Assembly (NCBI RefSeq): GCF_900162665.1
Contig: NZ_LT727813.1
Span: forward strand, 278,214 to 342,213
Reading direction: 5' to 3'
Length of the DNA: 64,000 bases
Source of the DNA: Oceanobacillus sojae
GTDB taxonomy: Bacteria; Bacillota; Bacilli; Bacillales; Amphibacillaceae
Numbering within the stretch: the stretch's first letter is position 1; the number at the start of each line of letters is the position of its first letter. Below, piece by piece: positions 4,799 through 57,273 of the stretch. A program made the position numbers and the translations under genes. The notes beneath the pieces were generated by a model. It was given only the letters and a program-made list of their open reading frames with translations, was not told the DNA's origin and ran no database searches.

Positions 4799-5686
4799 TT
4801 ATCGATTCTTCATTCTTTTGATAACCTCTGCTCTTGTCGGCATTCCTTCCTGAGCTCCAATTTTCTCTACAGCTAAAGAGGCGGCCGCATTGGCAAATTC
4901 AATTGCCTTCTCTATATCTTTTTCTTTTGCATATTCCGTTACAAAGGCTCCGTTAAAAGTGTCTCCTGCTCCAGTAGTATCTTTTACCTTTGCCTGAAAA
5001 GAAGAAATTGTCTTCTCTTCTCCATCCGGCAATGTGAAAGCAACTCCCTGCTCTCCCCTTGTCTCTATAATCTTCTTTCTTATAGCTGAAGTATCTATGG
5101 ATTGCTTCATTGCCATGTGCTCTGATTCATTCGGTGTAATAAACGTTGCTTTTTCTACAATGTTCTCCAGAACCTTGTTATATGGGGCCGGATTAATAAC
5201 AACAGGAATACCATGCTTGTACGCAAGCTCTGCCGTGTATTCAATTGTTTCCATCGGTATCTCAAATTGCATTAAAACAATATCGCAGGAAAGAATTATG
5301 TCCTGTTTTTCTTTTACCATTTCCGGTGTTACATATTTATTCGCTCCCGGAGCAACAATAATTCGATTATCCCCATCAGAAAGAATAATAGTTGCAACGC
5401 CGGTTGATTCATTGGGAACAGTTATAATTGCGTCACTAACAGCGCCTTCAGCACGGAATCGTTCTTTCAAACTCTTTCCAAAAGGATCCTCCCCTACTGC
5501 TCCAACCATGACAACTTCTGCTCCTAGCCTGGCTGCTGCAATTGCCTGATTTGCTCCCTTACCGCCGGGATAGGTAGTAAACGATTCACCAAGAACCGTT
5601 TCTCCCTGCGCAGGTACTTTATCCGTTGTTGTCACCATATCCATATTGATACTTCCGACAACACAGACTCTTGGATTTTTTTTCAT
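4799..5686 (-). CDS. rbsK: Ribokinase
   Basis: This is a PfkB-family kinase converting ribose to ribose 5-phosphate. It shows VVGSINMDMV at the N terminus, GGKGANQAIAAARLGA (the PfkB signature 1 and ribokinase hallmark) at about 41-56, and TGAGDTFNGAF near residue 240 with the catalytic Asp. An ATG nine bases upstream directly abuts the ribosome site, so the ATG at 5686 is preferred; AAGGGA precedes it by about 9 nt. It follows rbsR by 13 bp and is co-transcribed. A 116-bp gap separates it from the nucleoside hydrolase gene. Confidence 0.92.
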   Translation of the reverse strand: MKKNPRVCVVGSINMDMVTTTDKVPAQGETVLGESFTTYPGGKGANQAIAAARLGAEVVMVGAVGEDPFGKSLKERFRAEGAVSDAIITVPNESTGVATIILSDGDNRIIVAPGANKYVTPEMVKEKQDIILSCDIVLMQFEIPMETIEYTAELAYKHGIPVVINPAPYNKVLENIVEKATFITPNESEHMAMKQSIDTSAIRKKIIETRGEQGVAFTLPDGEEKTISSFQAKVKDTTGAGDTFNGAFVTEYAKEKDIEKAIEFANAAASLAVEKIGAQEGMPTRAEVIKRMKNR

Positions 5687-10442: not shown

Positions 10443-10520
10443 CAAAAAGTCCAGCAAAAATGAGGCATCAAATCCGTCTTGAACTTTTTGGTCCTTTTAT
10501 TAGCTATTTTGAACTCGCAT
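10443..10520. repeat. Short MITE-like element, copy A
   Basis: One end reads TCAAAAAGTCCAGCAAAAATGA, and the other, read on the opposite strand, is GAGTTCAAAATAGC followed by AAAGGACCAAAAAGTTCAAG. The latter closely matches the end of the larger element at 52431-52618 (AAAGGACCAAGAAGTTCAAG). The centre of the element is missing here, so this is an internally deleted copy. It overlaps the last codons of the aconitase gene. Confidence 0.65.
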
Positions 10521-12443
10521 TTTAATCCAATTTATAATCCCGCCGGCCAGCAGAATGTCAAGATGCCGCTTCGTCAAATCATGCTGGACGGTAATCGTAC
10601 GATCTGTCCCTTTCAGTTTTATATCAAATGTACGCTGGTTCTGTATTGTTTGATGGATATGACGAAATTCAAGTATATCCTCTTGATGGAGCAGGTCATA
10701 GTCTTCCTCATTCACAAACGTTAATGGCAGAATACCGAAGTTAATCAAGTTTTGAAGATGAATTCGAGCAAAACCCTTCACAAGCACAACCTTTAATCCG
10801 AGATAACGTGGCGCGAGTGCCGCATGCTCCCGGCTGGACCCTTGTCCGTAATTAAAGCCTGCTACCACTGTATGGCCGCCATCATCACGTTTTTTCATGG
10901 CCTTTTCATAATAATCTTCATCAATAATCTCAAAGGCAAAAGTACTGATTCTTTGAATATTACTGCGAAATGGTAATACTCGTGAGCCGCCGGCAAGAAT
11001 CTCATCTGTTGATATATTATCCTGCATTTTTAATAAAACAGGCAGATCAAAGTTATCTTCAATTGGCTGAAAATCTGGTATAGCAGTGATGTTTGGCCCT
11101 TTTTCCAATTTGATTTGGCTGTTATCCTCCGGCGGTGCCTCCAGCATTCCTTTTGTAGAAAAGGTAGTTGGTTCTTTTATTTTCGGATAAGAAATATCTA
11201 AAGTTCTTGGATCCGTAATGACACCTGTTAATGCAGAAGCGGCGGCTGTCTCCGGACTGCACAGGAAGACACTGTCTTCTCTTGTGCCGGATCGTCCCGG
11301 GAAGTTCCTTGGAGTAGTACGTAAACTGTTCCGTCCCGTAGCCGGGGCCTGCCCCATTCCAATACAGCCATTACAGCCTGCCTGATGCATCCTGGCTCCG
11401 GCGGACAAGAGATTCGCAATATGTCCATTCTCTACAAGCTGTTCCAGCAACTGACGGGAGGTTGGATTAATATCAAAAGAAATCCCGTTCGCAGCCTGCT
11501 CCCCTTTAACAATTTCACTGGCAATCGCAAAATCGCGGTATCCCGGATTGGCCGAGGAACCGATATAAGACTGATAAATGGCTTCTCCAGCAACTTCTGT
11601 AACAGGAACGACATTCCCCGGACTGGATGGTTTTGCGATTAACGGTTCCAGCGCAGATAAATCAATTTTTTCATGTTCATCATATGTCGCTCCGTTATCC
11701 GATTTTAATTCTACCCACTGATCTTCACGTCCCTGTGTTTTTAGAAAACGCTTCACTTCTTTATCAGAAGGAAATACGGTTGCAGTCGCTCCAAGCTCAG
11801 CACCCATATTGGCAATAACATGCCGATCCATGGCAGATAGCTCTTTAACGCCCGGACCATAATATTCAATGATCCTGCCGACTCCGCCCTGTACGCCGTG
11901 ACGGCGCAGCATTTCTAAAATAACATCTTTAGCGCTGACCCAATCCGGGAGTTTCCCTGTCAGCTCTACTCCCATCACACGGGGCATTTTTACATAGTAA
12001 GGTTCTCCCGCCATCGCCATTGTCACATCAATACCGCCTGCTCCAATCGCCAGCATTCCCATACAGCCGTTGGCACATGTATGACTATCTGATCCTAATA
12101 AGGTCTTTCCCGGGCGTGCCAACTGCTGCATGTGGACAGGATGACTGACACCGTTTCCAGGCCTGCTGTAATAAATTCCGAATTTCTGTGCCGCACTTCT
12201 TAAAAAAAGGTGGTCATCCGCGTTACGATAATCTTCCTGAATCAAGTTATGGTCTACATATTGCGCAGAAGCCTCTGTTTTCACCCGGTCAATTCCCATT
12301 GCTTCCAGTTCGAGCATTACCATCGTTCCTGTCGCATCCTGCGTTAATGTCTGATCAATCTTTATTCCAATTTCTTCTCCAGCCTTCATTTCTCCTGACA
12401 GCAAATGATCTTGAATTAATTTTTGAGCTGCATTAAGCTGCAT
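10500..12443 (-). CDS. Aconitate hydratase, Aquifex-type (homoaconitase-like)
   Basis: A 647-residue monomeric aconitase in the LeuC/LeuD fusion order, shorter than the roughly 900-residue CitB type and resembling the Aquifex-type family. The three cluster ligands are visible: Cys123 in DSHTCANG, and Cys357 and Cys360 in GCNGC. The swivel domain contains NYGQGSSREHAAL. The reaction is isomerisation of citrate and isocitrate via cis-aconitate with a 4Fe-4S cluster. GGAGGAAGCAAC precedes the ATG. The last residues (MRVQNS) are encoded by the end of a repeat element, so the C terminus may be altered relative to homologues. Confidence 0.88.
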   Translation of the reverse strand: MQLNAAQKLIQDHLLSGEMKAGEEIGIKIDQTLTQDATGTMVMLELEAMGIDRVKTEASAQYVDHNLIQEDYRNADDHLFLRSAAQKFGIYYSRPGNGVSHPVHMQQLARPGKTLLGSDSHTCANGCMGMLAIGAGGIDVTMAMAGEPYYVKMPRVMGVELTGKLPDWVSAKDVILEMLRRHGVQGGVGRIIEYYGPGVKELSAMDRHVIANMGAELGATATVFPSDKEVKRFLKTQGREDQWVELKSDNGATYDEHEKIDLSALEPLIAKPSSPGNVVPVTEVAGEAIYQSYIGSSANPGYRDFAIASEIVKGEQAANGISFDINPTSRQLLEQLVENGHIANLLSAGARMHQAGCNGCIGMGQAPATGRNSLRTTPRNFPGRSGTREDSVFLCSPETAAASALTGVITDPRTLDISYPKIKEPTTFSTKGMLEAPPEDNSQIKLEKGPNITAIPDFQPIEDNFDLPVLLKMQDNISTDEILAGGSRVLPFRSNIQRISTFAFEIIDEDYYEKAMKKRDDGGHTVVAGFNYGQGSSREHAALAPRYLGLKVVLVKGFARIHLQNLINFGILPLTFVNEEDYDLLHQEDILEFRHIHQTIQNQRTFDIKLKGTDRTITVQHDLTKRHLDILLAGGIINWIKMRVQNS

Positions 12444-12776: not shown

Positions 12777-12805
12777 TTGCACTTATCGTACCAGCCCTAT
12801 ATAAT
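12777..12805 (+). promoter_or_regulatory. Promoter of the riboswitch transcript
   Basis: TTGCAC at 12777-12782 and TATAAT at 12800-12805 are separated by 17 bp. Transcription would start near 12812, just upstream of the riboswitch aptamer. Confidence 0.75.
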
Positions 12806-12811
12806 AAATGA

Positions 12812-12957
12812 AAACATCAATTGAAATAAATCCCAAAGGGGAGTAGCATAATAGCAGCTGTCGTCATTACAGGAGAAATCCTCGGCACTGCTGGCAATCG
12901 ATTAATTTCGTTGCTTGCGAGACCTTTGTCCAATCTGTGGGCAAAGGTCTCTTTTTT
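12812..12957 (+). promoter_or_regulatory. yybP-ykoY manganese riboswitch with terminator
   Basis: The segment carries the conserved blocks of the yybP-ykoY Mn2+ aptamer: AAAGGGGAGTAGC at 12835-12847, GTCGTCATTAC in the middle and CACTGCTGGCAA at 12886-12897. A canonical terminator follows at 12919-12957, where GAGACCTTTG pairs with CAAAGGTCTC before TTTTTT. By analogy with the known class, manganese binding should favour the antiterminated form and switch on the downstream genes. Those genes are not one of the usual targets (TerC, MntP or P-type ATPases). Confidence 0.82.
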
Positions 12958-12995
12958 GTCAGCTTTTGCCACACTTACTTCAAGGAGGAGAAAAG

Positions 12996-13121
12996 ATGTC
13001 TAAACTGACAAAGCTTCTAAAATCTAAAGTGGTAAAAGAAGGAATCAAGCAAGCAAAAAAACACGCCCTTCCTGTTATCAAAAAAGAGTTAGCTAAAAGA
13101 AAAGGCAGTTTTAAAAAATAA
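12996..13121 (+). CDS. Tiny lysine-rich protein (41 aa)
   Basis: The ATG at 12996 has AAGGAGGAG 6-7 nt upstream, a very strong ribosome site, so the longer frame open from 12915 (which crosses the riboswitch terminator) is not used. The 41-residue product is highly basic, with 16 Lys/Arg residues, and is predicted to be one amphipathic helix. Its stop codon overlaps the next start by one base (TAATG), implying coupled translation. No known family was recognised. It could be a nucleic-acid- or membrane-binding peptide, or a leader that sets kinase synthesis. Confidence 0.7.
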   Translation: MSKLTKLLKSKVVKEGIKQAKKHALPVIKKELAKRKGSFKK

Positions 13122-13753
13122 TGAAGCCGTCCAGATACAATGATTTAGCATCCACTGTTTTATTTACTAAAAGAAATCGACGTATCAAAGTACTCAGGCA
13201 TCACGGGGACTTAAAATTATATGGAATGGGAAGAAGTGCTGCTGTTTTCAGAATAAAAAATGAAAATAGAGTGATTAAAGTCTTTTACCCGGCTTTTGAA
13301 AAAACAGCAATCGAAGAAAAACAAAACTATGAAAAATTAAATGGAAACCCTTATTATCCCACTATATATGAAGCAGGAATCAATTACCTGGTTATGGATT
13401 TTATTGAAGGAAAGACATTCTTTGAATGCCTGGCAGAAGGAATTCCATTGAAGCCTCATTATATAGAGCAGGTTGACAATGGATTACAATTTGCAAAAGC
13501 AGCAGGATTAAATCCTTCAGATATTCATCTGCATAATCTTATCCTGACAAAGGAAGATGAAGTACGTATTATTGATGTAGCACGTTTTTCACAGGAAAAG
13601 AAGTGCACGCAGTGGGATGATTTAAAAATTGGTTATACCCGATATTACCAGCGCCCATTTTTCCCGAAAAAAATCCCTAAATGGGTCATGTATTCTGTGT
13701 CAAAATTTTATCGGTTATATAAGTATTTAGCGATAAAAAGAGGAAAAGAGTGA
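13121..13753 (+). CDS. Serine/threonine kinase-like protein, YrzF type
   Basis: A compact 210-residue protein with the protein-kinase fold. The glycine loop GMGRSAAVF is at 35-43, the ATP lysine is Lys53 in VIKVF, and the catalytic loop is DIHLHN with Asp134 and Asn139. Asp152 in IIDVARF takes the DFG position. All four key residues are present, so catalysis is plausible although the motifs are divergent. The first strand region (about 20-34) and the 53-90 segment with MDFIEGKTF complete the N-lobe. The gene is coupled to the tiny basic protein and controlled by a manganese riboswitch. B. subtilis YrzF-like proteins are the nearest relatives I can suggest; the substrate is unknown. Confidence 0.72.
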   Translation: MKPSRYNDLASTVLFTKRNRRIKVLRHHGDLKLYGMGRSAAVFRIKNENRVIKVFYPAFEKTAIEEKQNYEKLNGNPYYPTIYEAGINYLVMDFIEGKTFFECLAEGIPLKPHYIEQVDNGLQFAKAAGLNPSDIHLHNLILTKEDEVRIIDVARFSQEKKCTQWDDLKIGYTRYYQRPFFPKKIPKWVMYSVSKFYRLYKYLAIKRGKE

Positions 13754-13775
13754 GATATGACTCTTTTCCTTTTTA
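13741..13775 (+). terminator. Terminator of the kinase-like gene
   Basis: AGGAAAAGAGT pairs with ACTCTTTTCCT and is followed by TTTT. The stop codon lies in the loop. Confidence 0.75.
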
Positions 13776-13778
13776 ACC

Positions 13779-14153
13779 CTATCCCGTACAAATCATGATG
13801 ATATTCCTGTCTGGATCGCAAATTGTAAAAAATGAAAAATCATCAAAACGGGTAATTTCTGATTCCATATCGTATCCTAATTCTTTTACATAGACATAGG
13901 ACTCATCAATATTATCTGTATGGAAATTGAAGATTGGATACATACCGGAAGTTTGTTTTTTTACAATGCTTCCTGACCCGGCATCCAAAGTTAAACCAGT
14001 ATGTTCTGCAATTTTAATATTATATACCGGCCTTTCTACAGCAGTTAAATCATACTCCTGACCAAGTAATTCTGCATACCATTTTACGGACCTCTCTAAA
14101 TCGCTGACATGTACAAAAATCGTGTTAATTTTATTCATTATTGGACTGCTCAT
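13779..14153 (-). CDS. VOC family (glyoxalase/dioxygenase-like) protein
   Basis: A single-domain vicinal oxygen chelate protein of 124 residues. It opens with INTIFVHVSDLERSVKWYAELLG and closes with FFTICDPDRNIIMIC, the two beta-alpha-beta modules of the fold. His and Glu candidates for a metal site are only partly recognisable. The family covers glyoxalases, dioxygenases and antibiotic-binding proteins, so the substrate stays open. It is transcribed toward the kinase-like gene. Confidence 0.8.
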   Translation of the reverse strand: MSSPIMNKINTIFVHVSDLERSVKWYAELLGQEYDLTAVERPVYNIKIAEHTGLTLDAGSGSIVKKQTSGMYPIFNFHTDNIDESYVYVKELGYDMESEITRFDDFSFFTICDPDRNIIMICTG

Positions 14154-26659: not shown

Positions 26660-26743
26660 TGCGGTCAAGAGGATTTGAACCTCCACGGGTTATTCACCCA
26701 CCAGGCCCTCAACCTGGCGCGTCTGCCATTCCGCCATGACCGC
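26660..26743 (-). tRNA. tRNA-Leu (GAG)
   Basis: The minus strand folds into a class II tRNA: acceptor GCGGTCA/TGACCGC, the anticodon arm CCAGG-TTGAGGG-CCTGG (anticodon GAG), a long variable arm and GGTTCAAATCC. CCA is not encoded. It is the last tRNA of the cluster and corresponds in position to trnS-leu2 of B. subtilis. Confidence 0.95.
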
Positions 26744-26755
26744 ATTATATATAAA

Positions 26756-26843
26756 TGGTGCGGATGAAGGGAGTCGAACCCCCACGTCCTTAACGGACAC
26801 TGGAGCCTGATTCCAGCGCGTCTGCCAATTCCGCCACATCCGC
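26756..26843 (-). tRNA. tRNA-Leu (CAG)
   Basis: Acceptor arms GCGGATG and CATCCGC, the anticodon arm CTGGA-ATCAGGC-TCCAG (anticodon CAG) and a long variable arm are present. The 3' CCA is encoded. Confidence 0.95.
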
Positions 26844-26853
26844 AAAAATAAAA

Positions 26854-26929
26854 TGGTGAGCCATGAAGGATTCGAACCTTCGACCCTCTGATTAAAAGTC
26901 AGATGCTCTACCGACTGAGCTAATGGCTC
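26854..26929 (-). tRNA. tRNA-Lys (TTT)
   Basis: The minus strand reads GAGCCATTAGCTCAG at the 5' end, with anticodon loop CTTTTAA (TTT), GGTTCGAATCC and an encoded CCA. A copy of its 5' third lies upstream at 27058-27083. Confidence 0.95.
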
Positions 26930-27057
26930 CTATGTTAAATGGAGTATTGCTTTATTTAGTGCTTCTCATTTTGGTGGACCCCTGCATCTGCAAGCATATT
27001 CTTTGAAGTAAATGCTTCGGGGTTACTCGAAGCTTATTCGGCAGAAGTGTTGCTCGT

Positions 27058-27083
27058 TGCTCTACCGACTGAGCTAATGGCTC
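27058..27083 (-). pseudogene. Truncated tRNA-Lys 5' fragment
   Basis: On the minus strand the first 26 nt match the intact tRNA-Lys exactly, from GAGCCATTAGCTCAG through the D arm (GTCGGTAGAGCA). The sequence then diverges and no anticodon arm or T arm can be formed. It lies about 130 bp upstream of the intact gene. It is most simply a partial duplication or recombination scar. Confidence 0.75.
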
Positions 27084-27165
27084 CTAAATAAAATACTGCT
27101 TTTGAAATAAAAAAATACTATTAACGTGAATAGTATTAGCATGTATTCCTTCTAAAAAATAAAAA

Positions 27166-27240
27166 TGGCTGGGCCACTAGGATTCGAACCTAGGGTACAC
27201 GGGATCAAAACCCGATGCCTTACCGCTTGGCTATGGCCCA
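27166..27240 (-). tRNA. tRNA-Gln (TTG)
   Basis: Acceptor TGGGCCA/TGGCCCA, D arm AGCCAAGCGGTAAGGC, anticodon loop TTTTGAT (TTG), T arm GGTTCGAATCC and an encoded CCA are present. Confidence 0.95.
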
Positions 27241-27247
27241 ACTATAA

Positions 27248-27324
27248 TGGCGGTCCGGACGGGACTCGAACCCGCGACCTCCTGCGTGACAGGCAGGCAT
27301 TCTAACCAACTGAACTACCGGACC
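27248..27324 (-). tRNA. tRNA-Asp (GTC)
   Basis: Acceptor GGTCCGG/CCGGACC, D arm TAGTTCAGTTGGTTAGA, anticodon loop CTGTCAC (GTC), T arm GGGTTCGAGTCCC and an encoded CCA are present. The trnS cluster of B. subtilis that this group otherwise resembles lacks an Asp gene, as far as I recall. Confidence 0.95.
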
Positions 27325-27350
27325 GGATATTTTTTAATTTTTAAGAAAGA

Positions 27351-27422
27351 TGACCCGTACGGGATTCGAACCCGTGTTACCGCCGTGAAAGGGCGGTGTC
27401 TTAACCGCTTGACCAACGGGCC
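27351..27422 (-). tRNA. tRNA-Glu (TTC)
   Basis: Acceptor GGCCCGT/ACGGGTC (with one G-T pair), D arm TGGTCAAGCGGTTAAGAC, anticodon loop CTTTCAC (TTC) and T arm CGGGTTCGAATCCCG are present. CCA is not encoded. Confidence 0.95.
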
Positions 27423-27438
27423 ATTATGAAAATTTAAA

Positions 27439-27529
27439 TGGCGGAGAAGGAGGGATTTGAACCCTCGCGCCGCTTACACGACCTACACCCTTAGCAGGGG
27501 CGCCTCTTCAGCCACTTGAGTACTTCTCC
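27439..27529 (-). tRNA. tRNA-Ser (GCT)
   Basis: A class II tRNA with acceptor GGAGAAG/CTTCTCC, anticodon loop CTGCTAA (GCT), a long variable arm, GGGTTCAAATCCC and an encoded CCA. Confidence 0.95.
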
Positions 27530-27537
27530 ATAAAAGG

Positions 27538-27609
27538 CTCCACAGGTAGGATTCGAACCTACGACCGATCGGTTAACAGCCGATTGCTCTACCACTGAGC
27601 TACTGTGGA
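27538..27609 (-). tRNA. tRNA-Asn (GTT)
   Basis: Acceptor TCCACAG/CTGTGGA, D arm TAGCTCAGTGGTAGAGC, anticodon loop CTGTTAA (GTT) and T arm TAGGTTCGAATCCTA are present. It is the first gene of the cluster. CCA is not encoded. Confidence 0.95.
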
Positions 27610-57130: not shown

Positions 57131-57273
57131 TCTAAGTGGGAGATCCAACAGCCAGTAACGGCCCGATTGGTTCGGGCCTACAGGATGTAGGTCACAAAGG
57201 CATTGCGACACGACGTCGCGAACTTAGCCTTTGTTCCTCGAATAGCGGGGAATGAAAGACCCCCCACTCAATG
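57131..57273. ncRNA. Highly structured intergenic element, possible ncRNA or repeat
   Basis: The outer arms AGTGGG (57135-57140) and CCCACT (57263-57268) close a 130-bp region with several nested helices. These are GGCCCGA/TCGGGCC (57160-57178), CCTACA/TGTAGG (57177-57191), CAAAGGC/GCCTTTG (57195-57233) enclosing GCGAC/GTCGC, and GGGG/CCCC before the right arm. It is far GC-richer than its flanks and has no coding frame. It looks like a mobile-element-associated or dispersed RNA; the family was not identified. Confidence 0.5.

Follow-up and report, generated by a model that had tools for sequence, protein, structure and literature searches.

What does a leader with the look of a manganese riboswitch do in front of a gene for a kinase-like protein? 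To our knowledge, the targets known for Mn2+ riboswitches are transporters, P-type ATPases and TerC chaperones. The question arises from a stretch of 64,000 nucleotides (the window below) in a genome of 4.8 Mb, where a two-gene unit at 12777-13753 on the plus strand consists of a promoter-like site, the leader, a 41-aa ORF and a 210-aa kinase ORF (Table 1). The stop of the 41-aa ORF overlaps the kinase start at 13121, just as the first-pass annotation had read the coupling, and since the next gene, a glyoxalase-like one, lies on the opposite strand, the unit comprises two genes. The hairpin found 3' of the kinase is reported by the terminator scan on the minus strand only. On the other side, a gene for an aconitase-family protein of 647 aa (10500-12443, minus strand) runs divergently from the riboswitch operon. 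The window further holds a tRNA gene cluster with eight Rfam matches (26660-27609, minus strand) and a Bacillaceae-1 RNA of 74 bits in Rfam (57177-57243, minus strand).

Table 1. Features of the putative riboswitch-kinase unit and its 3' flank, in window coordinates.
Feature	Position	Strand	Basis
Promoter-like site: TTGCAC, 17 nt, TATAAT	12777-12805	+	-10 perfect, -35 3/6, by reading
Predicted Mn2+ riboswitch aptamer, RF00080 short form; L1 GGGGAGUAGC, L3 GUCGUCA	12826-12928	+	Covariance models
P1 5' strand CAAAGG, switch helix	12834-12839	+	Folding; covaries in the leader alignment
P1 3' strand CCUUUG, common to the terminator 5' arm	12923-12928	+	Folding, alignment, terminator scan
Intrinsic terminator: hairpin stem 12919-12951 (14 pairs) and U-run	12919-12957	+	Folding, terminator scan
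Segment CUUUUGCCACAC, complementary to the terminator 3' arm	12963-12974	+	p 0.015 against 200 shuffles
Ribosome binding site GGAGG	12984-12988	+	By reading
Gene for the 41-aa Lys-rich small protein	12996-13121	+	ORF, alignment, pN/pS
Predicted RIO/Hanks-like kinase, 210 aa, YrzF-like; start overlaps the preceding stop (TAATG)	13121-13753	+	Profiles, alignment, predicted structure
Hairpin 3' of the kinase, possible terminator	13741-13774	+	TTTT after it on the plus strand
Glyoxalase-like gene, convergent with the kinase	13779-14153	-	ORF and profile

The leader had been taken at first reading for a yybP-ykoY aptamer, with a covariance-model search suggested as the check. This search gives a match of RF00080 at 12826-12916 on the plus strand with 24.7 bits (E 5.3e-5 over the 401 nt searched, and E 1.5e-4 for the same site genome-wide), yet this falls short of the curated 45 bits, so that the Rfam scan at the gathering threshold misses the leader. 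Low scores are usual with this model, as 96 of 147 genomes of the family have a match at E<=1 and 7 of the 147 pass the cut-off. The mntP leader of E. coli scores 41.6, likewise under 45, while the alx leader of that species gives no match at E<=0.01 in the 4 kb searched. As the mntP leader fails and so few family genomes pass, the cut-off is strict for the short form. What the window leader lacks is thus the 45-bit score; what it has is the L1 string GGGGAGUA at 12838-12845, the L3 letters CGUCA, and a P1 helix that competes with the terminator. With these elements the aptamer assignment holds, and so does that of the terminator, which has a 14-pair stem followed by a U-run. Judged from its sequence, the leader joins a yybP-ykoY (Mn2+) aptamer of the short form to a terminator, and from the riboswitch class we infer that it is controlled by Mn2+.

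We have also compared the leader with its relatives. Leaders were collected by the string GGGGAGTAG together with a tail with AGACCTT; there were 108 string matches, four without the tail were dropped, and 104 were kept. From these, 42 leaders standing 5' of kinases, TerC and other genes were chosen for the alignment A2, 23 of them from the 80 kinase loci described below. L3 CGUCA, which holds the Mn-contacting adenosine, is present in all 42 aligned leaders and in 103 of the 104 collected ones, and L1 GGGGAGUAG is present in 42 of 42. That L1 and the inner P1 pairs do not vary is uninformative, because both are fixed by the collection string and tail; L3 and the outer P1 pairs are free of the collection criteria. 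L3 CGUCA matches the letters U39, C40 and A41 of the L. lactis Mn site (PMC9190785), and in our own alignment all of the site letters given there are identical in the window leader except U44, whose contact is made via the phosphate. The L3 core of the window leader is also that of the TerC leaders in the same genome and family, and the stem beside L3 carries one bulged C in the window type.

The consensus pairs are formed in 96.4% of cells over the 42 leaders versus 28.8-47.2% with slid partners, a percentage favoured by the derivation of the consensus structure from the same rows. Two-sided changes are found in 9 of the 18 consensus pairs; for instance, at the P1 pair 3/130 we see C-G in 18 rows, 14 rows with U-A and one with U-G, while nine rows are unpaired. 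A second covariance model (R1), built from the 42 leaders of A2, finds exactly two sites over this genome, i.e., the window leader and one 5' of a TerC gene (TIGR03716, 304.9 bits versus a cut-off of 138.5); since the model was built with both of them, the informative part is that no third site turned up. Two unusual sequences were seen as well. Among the four that were dropped, L058 is an RF00080 match with the L1 string, different L3 letters and no AGACCTT tail. At L115, a second Mn-type leader (5029-5126, 64.6 bits) without CGUCA lies downstream of the kinase, and the gene after it encodes 448 aa, by eye a CorC/HlyC-type CBS membrane protein.

The "consensus promoter" of the first-pass annotation proved half right: the -10 hexamer TATAAT (12800-12805) is perfect, while the -35 hexamer TTGCAC (12777-12782) has three of six matches, and the scan that gave the terminator does not include the pair in its output. 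TTGC and TATAAT are also present upstream in relatives of the genus.

How the leader might switch can be read from its two competing helices. The P1 3' strand CCUUUG falls inside the 5' arm of the terminator (12919-12951). When the nascent transcript is folded from 12820 at every 4 nt, P1 is best at lengths of 110-122 and the terminator from 126 on, and for the full leader the fold with the terminator has -52.9 kcal/mol versus -37.3 kcal/mol with P1 forced. Since P1 covaries and its 3' strand is common to the terminator, an ON switch is implied. We consider it likely that the locus is an Mn2+-ON transcriptional riboswitch operon and that the kinase is part of the response to high Mn2+. Following the known class, plentiful Mn2+ would bridge L1 and L3, so that P1 would hold and the terminator would be blocked; with P1 held, RNA polymerase would transcribe on into the genes of the 41-aa basic protein and the RIO/Hanks-like kinase. 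At low Mn2+, the terminator would prevail. In Halalkalibacterium halodurans, suppressor deletions affecting the ykoY Mn2+ riboswitch terminator were selected and are described as raising YkoY production (PMC10898510). Two Bacillus RNA-seq papers place the leader named there 5' of ykoY and of yybP (PMC4342826, PMC3871023). Next to 30 leaders, made up of the 29 best-scoring RF00080 loci of the family and L001, we have found TerC in 11 by BLAST, a P-type ATPase-like next gene in 14 by eye, another gene in two, and no script-passing ORF in three.

The 41-residue Lys-rich gene was called at first from the sequence alone, and comparison bears it out. Over 14 equal-length orthologues, the mean pS is 0.78 and the mean pN 0.21 (pN/pS 0.27), with pN below pS in 91 of 91 pairs, versus pS 0.29 with pN 0.30 and pS 0.21 with pN 0.34 in the other two frames. 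By this substitution pattern, the 41-aa ORF is a real gene under purifying selection. G16, P26, K34 and R35 are invariant in 22 aligned small proteins of 34-43 aa. The 41-aa protein matches no family in Pfam (0 families at E<=1) or NCBIfam. That it serves as the common substrate of the kinase is unlikely, since three of the 22 relatives (L115, L123 and L137) have no Ser, Thr or Tyr; most likely it would be an accessory, such as a nucleic-acid or membrane binding helper, rather than a substrate.

As for the second protein, in which Lys53, Asp134, Asn139 and Asp152 had been picked out as kinase key residues, an alignment of 49 homologues shows all four without exception (catalytic Lys, catalytic Asp and Asn, and metal Asp), together with E66, the alphaC Glu, and G35 and G37 of the Gly-rich loop are likewise kept in all 49. 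The window kinase stays under the Pfam gathering cut-offs, with 19.6 bits for Pkinase (cut-off 31.7, E 6.7e-4) and 18.3 bits for RIO1 (cut-off 22, E 1.9e-3); the homologue at L115 passes that of RIO1 (27.8 versus 22). The best NCBIfam match is a PASTA Ser/Thr kinase (E 4.5e-8, far under its cut-off), and weak matches are given by an LPS heptose kinase and a KDO kinase (E 4.2e-4 and 0.033). An AlphaFold2 model of the protein (pLDDT 93.9, pTM 0.88) has the kinase fold. Foldseek puts M. tuberculosis PknA/PknB entries (6b2p, E 5.6e-8) and Rio2 on top, and the best match listed by VIA-align is A. fulgidus Rio2 (Z 15.2, rmsd 3.6, 156 residues, 19% identity). In its list of 50 rows, kinases of the RIO, Hanks, Ark1 and lanthipeptide-synthetase types span Z 12.6-15.2, and with so many kinases no more than about 2.6 Z units apart, the fold leaves the substrate class undecided. 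By its profiles and modelled structure, the protein is a RIO/Hanks-like kinase with predicted activity, apparently of the YrzF family; its nearest named relatives are in Oceanobacillus species.

Whether the leader and the kinase belong together has been examined in the best 80 of at least 574 relatives of the kinase in our genome collection. A leader of at least 73.8 bits by the leader model stands upstream on the same strand in 64 of these 80 loci, 23 of which were used in model building and 41 of which were not. Two further loci have degraded leaders (L110, 30.6 bits; L124, 29.1 bits), and 14 are without a leader, counting L117 and L139, where the upstream sequence covers 311 and 980 bases from the kinase match. 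A synteny survey of the 41-aa plus kinase pair had been suggested; of that pairing, the link between leader and kinase stands, while a small basic ORF is found between them in only 24 of the 64 linked loci. The other genes of this interval are Spo0M-like in nine loci, DUF6376-type lipoprotein in five, TerC in four and FbpB-like in two, and PAP2 occurs there too; some loci hold two types, and in 28 of the 64 our script found no ORF at all. Spo0M (L077), DUF6376 (L115), TerC (L090) and both FbpB-like genes have been confirmed by profile, the rest being assigned by likeness.

Runs of riboswitch, TerC and further genes up to the kinase occur at L090, L097, L107, L134 and L147. At L147 the order is riboswitch, TerC, DUF6376 lipoprotein, PAP2 and kinase, all but the kinase above the Pfam cut-off, and this run ties the kinase to envelope genes; at L149 the order is riboswitch, PAP2 and kinase. 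The linkage to manganese physiology, which had been offered as an inference, is thus strengthened both by the count of linked loci and by the TerC-kinase runs. On the strength of this conservation, the kinase may be a regular part of the way in which many Bacillaceae respond to high Mn2+, along with TerC metal chaperones and P-type ATPases. It would convert high Mn2+ to phosphorylation of a target, probably on the envelope or secretion side, because the genes between switch and kinase elsewhere include TerC, the lipoprotein and the PAP2 phosphatase.

On the other hand, the pairing has clear bounds. Within the genus, the leader is present at nine of nine close orthologues (at least 67% identity, window included) and at none of the 17 other kinase rows, for which about 1.5 kb upstream was covered and a distant leader could escape. 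Mapped on an 83-row tree of the kinase, the leader labels need 9 changes versus 17.5 in shuffles, and a clade of eight rows (B. pumilus types, B. atrophaeus and two long-branched rows; support 88) is without a leader. L112, which has one stop, was omitted from the alignment A3 and the tree, and L012, with one TAG, from the alignment A1. A class survey covered 299 genomes, 141 of them with a kinase match; the 80 better-scoring ones were re-searched for leaders with laxer filters. Here 19 of 86 kinase rows have a same-strand leader no more than 3 kb upstream, and 14 of the 21 rows with a kinase score of at least 238.7 are linked, one of them (G432) to a 5'-truncated leader. From the 126 leaders listed in the 80 genomes, we estimate the linkage expected by chance at well under one row in 86. 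Family f21 has five of nine rows linked, the leader being 136-170 bp upstream; these five leaders score 29.9-36.1 bits, yet all show GGGGAGUAGC, the P2 hairpin and UCGUCA. Family f25 has a leader at none of its 25 kinase rows.

Two simple generalizations can be rejected from these data. The link is not limited to Oceanobacillus, since leader and kinase are paired in many genera, nor is every YrzF-like kinase linked to a riboswitch, given the survey count, f25 and the eight-row clade. As f25, the B. pumilus/B. atrophaeus clade and the 17 rows of the genus are without a leader, Mn2+ control is not intrinsic to the kinase family. Some individual loci are worth recording. In genus g71 of the class survey (L142-L146), a longer, P2-bearing Mn leader stands directly 5' of a divergent kinase. 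In the Paenisporosarcina type (L110, L150), the 5' half of the leader is lost and the terminator kept, so that the kinase there should be without Mn2+ control. L111, from a record titled Pseudomonas sp. ISL-84, is a Cytobacillus-like kinase locus, probably from a mislabelled or mixed assembly.

Many riboswitch-kinase leaders without the small ORF hold a second terminator-like hairpin. Such a hairpin is seen, among other loci, at L082, L083, L085, L087, L093-L096, L098, L101 and L102, as well as L121, L122, L130, L133 and L136. In some cases the 5' arm of this second hairpin is complementary to the 3' arm of the first, and in 37 of 63 kinase loci (the 64 linked ones minus L107, which gave no hairpin) the stretch after the first terminator is complementary to the 3' arm of that terminator at p<0.05. 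This proportion is 8 of 9 for the distinct leaders of the window and genus and 6 of 26 for the other leaders that could be scored, four more having given no hairpin. The pattern suggests a tandem-hairpin relay through both terminators, of which the window segment 12963-12974 is possibly a remnant or a lock. The relay is only a lead, because the complementarity is mostly non-significant in the Cytobacillus/Peribacillus type, the rows are non-independent, and the second hairpin looks by eye more stable alone than the relay helix. If true, one aptamer relaying through two terminators would mean a very tight OFF state. We can thus sketch, tentatively and with nearly as much belief as doubt, a conserved Bacillaceae module from Mn to phosphorylation, in which the riboswitch sets the kinase level, small basic proteins act as helpers, and many leaders relay through two terminators.

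The same observations could be read in other ways. The kinase might be a passenger without an Mn2+ role of its own, behind a leader that served TerC or another Mn gene since lost or moved; the riboswitch-TerC-kinase runs would fit such a history, as would the members of the kinase family without a leader and the two decaying leaders (L110, L124). A passenger, however, is expected to lose its switch more often than is seen: the leader is intact in most of the best 80 loci, over many genera and despite changing intervening genes, nearly half of the linked loci have no script-found ORF between leader and kinase, and the divergent kinase group pairs directly with its P2-bearing leader. We hold this history to be quite unlikely. 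It is far less probable still that the leader has drifted to another ligand or signal and, for all its likeness to yybP-ykoY, does not sense Mn2+. The sub-threshold RF00080 score and the bulged C beside L3 would agree with such a drift, but the E. coli mntP leader is below the same cut-off, and the L3 core is identical to that of TerC leaders in the same genome and family.

An alternative of another kind leaves the Mn2+ control in place and changes the substrate: if the protein had the kinase fold but acted on small molecules or RNA instead of proteins, this would be an Mn2+-controlled modification of lipid, sugar or RNA. The weak hits to LPS heptose and KDO kinases in NCBIfam, the RIO-like small C-lobe, and the archaeal RNA kinase Ark1 among the structural matches listed (Z 13.6 and 13.4) all point that way, and a nucleic acid target would go well with a basic partner. 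Against this, NCBIfam gives the PASTA Ser/Thr kinase as its best match, the best Pfam matches are Pkinase and RIO1, the latter over its cut-off at L115, and the best structural match is Rio2. We regard this alternative as improbable, though by no means negligible, and prefer the reading of an Mn2+-ON operon whose kinase phosphorylates a target in the high-Mn2+ response.

In the literature searched, outside which lie the founding papers (Price 2015, Dambach 2015), we found no link between an Mn2+ riboswitch and a kinase. The riboswitch belongs to a known class, its kind of target is unusual, and the conserved kinase link is the new part. Such a conserved target would mean that a metal level is passed on to phosphorylation via an RNA sensor, and the recurring switch-kinase pairing is pointing to such a route, from Mn level to phosphorylation, in Bacillus relatives. 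It would also give a context to YrzF-like kinases, which are barely mentioned in the literature that we found.

Comparison with known systems places each part of the unit. The small basic proteins of the FbpB type are regarded as helpers in the iron-sparing response, and the 41-aa protein is like these Fur-regulated proteins (PF13040) in size and charge, but its membership is not supported, as it matches neither a Pfam nor an NCBIfam model. FbpB-family ORFs with PF13040 above the cut-off do stand directly after an Mn leader at L090 (42 aa) and L128 (41 aa), before TerC or the kinase, in a family named for Fur (iron) control. Among the RIO kinases, A. fulgidus Rio2 is the best listed structural match; its identity to the window kinase is low, the RIO1 profile is weak in the latter, and Rio2 has an extra N-terminal domain that the window kinase is without. 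B. subtilis YrzF is an apparent orthologue of the window kinase by way of a B. atrophaeus relative (L135), where the genes adjoining the kinase are, as we take them to be, csbX, bofC and yebC, presumably the place of yrzF. Unlike the window kinase, this clade has no riboswitch in the upstream stretch examined. YrzF is given as one of four Hanks-type kinases in B. subtilis (PMC12747378) and appears once in an interaction table (PMC4205851).

The closest comparison is that with the yybP-ykoY riboswitch of the TerC/ykoY type. The window leader is shorter than the Rfam model, yet it has the same L1 and L3 core and the same P1 that shares a strand with the terminator, and its ON logic would be alike. 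While the known type serves a transporter or metal chaperone, the window leader is followed by the genes for a small basic protein and a kinase.
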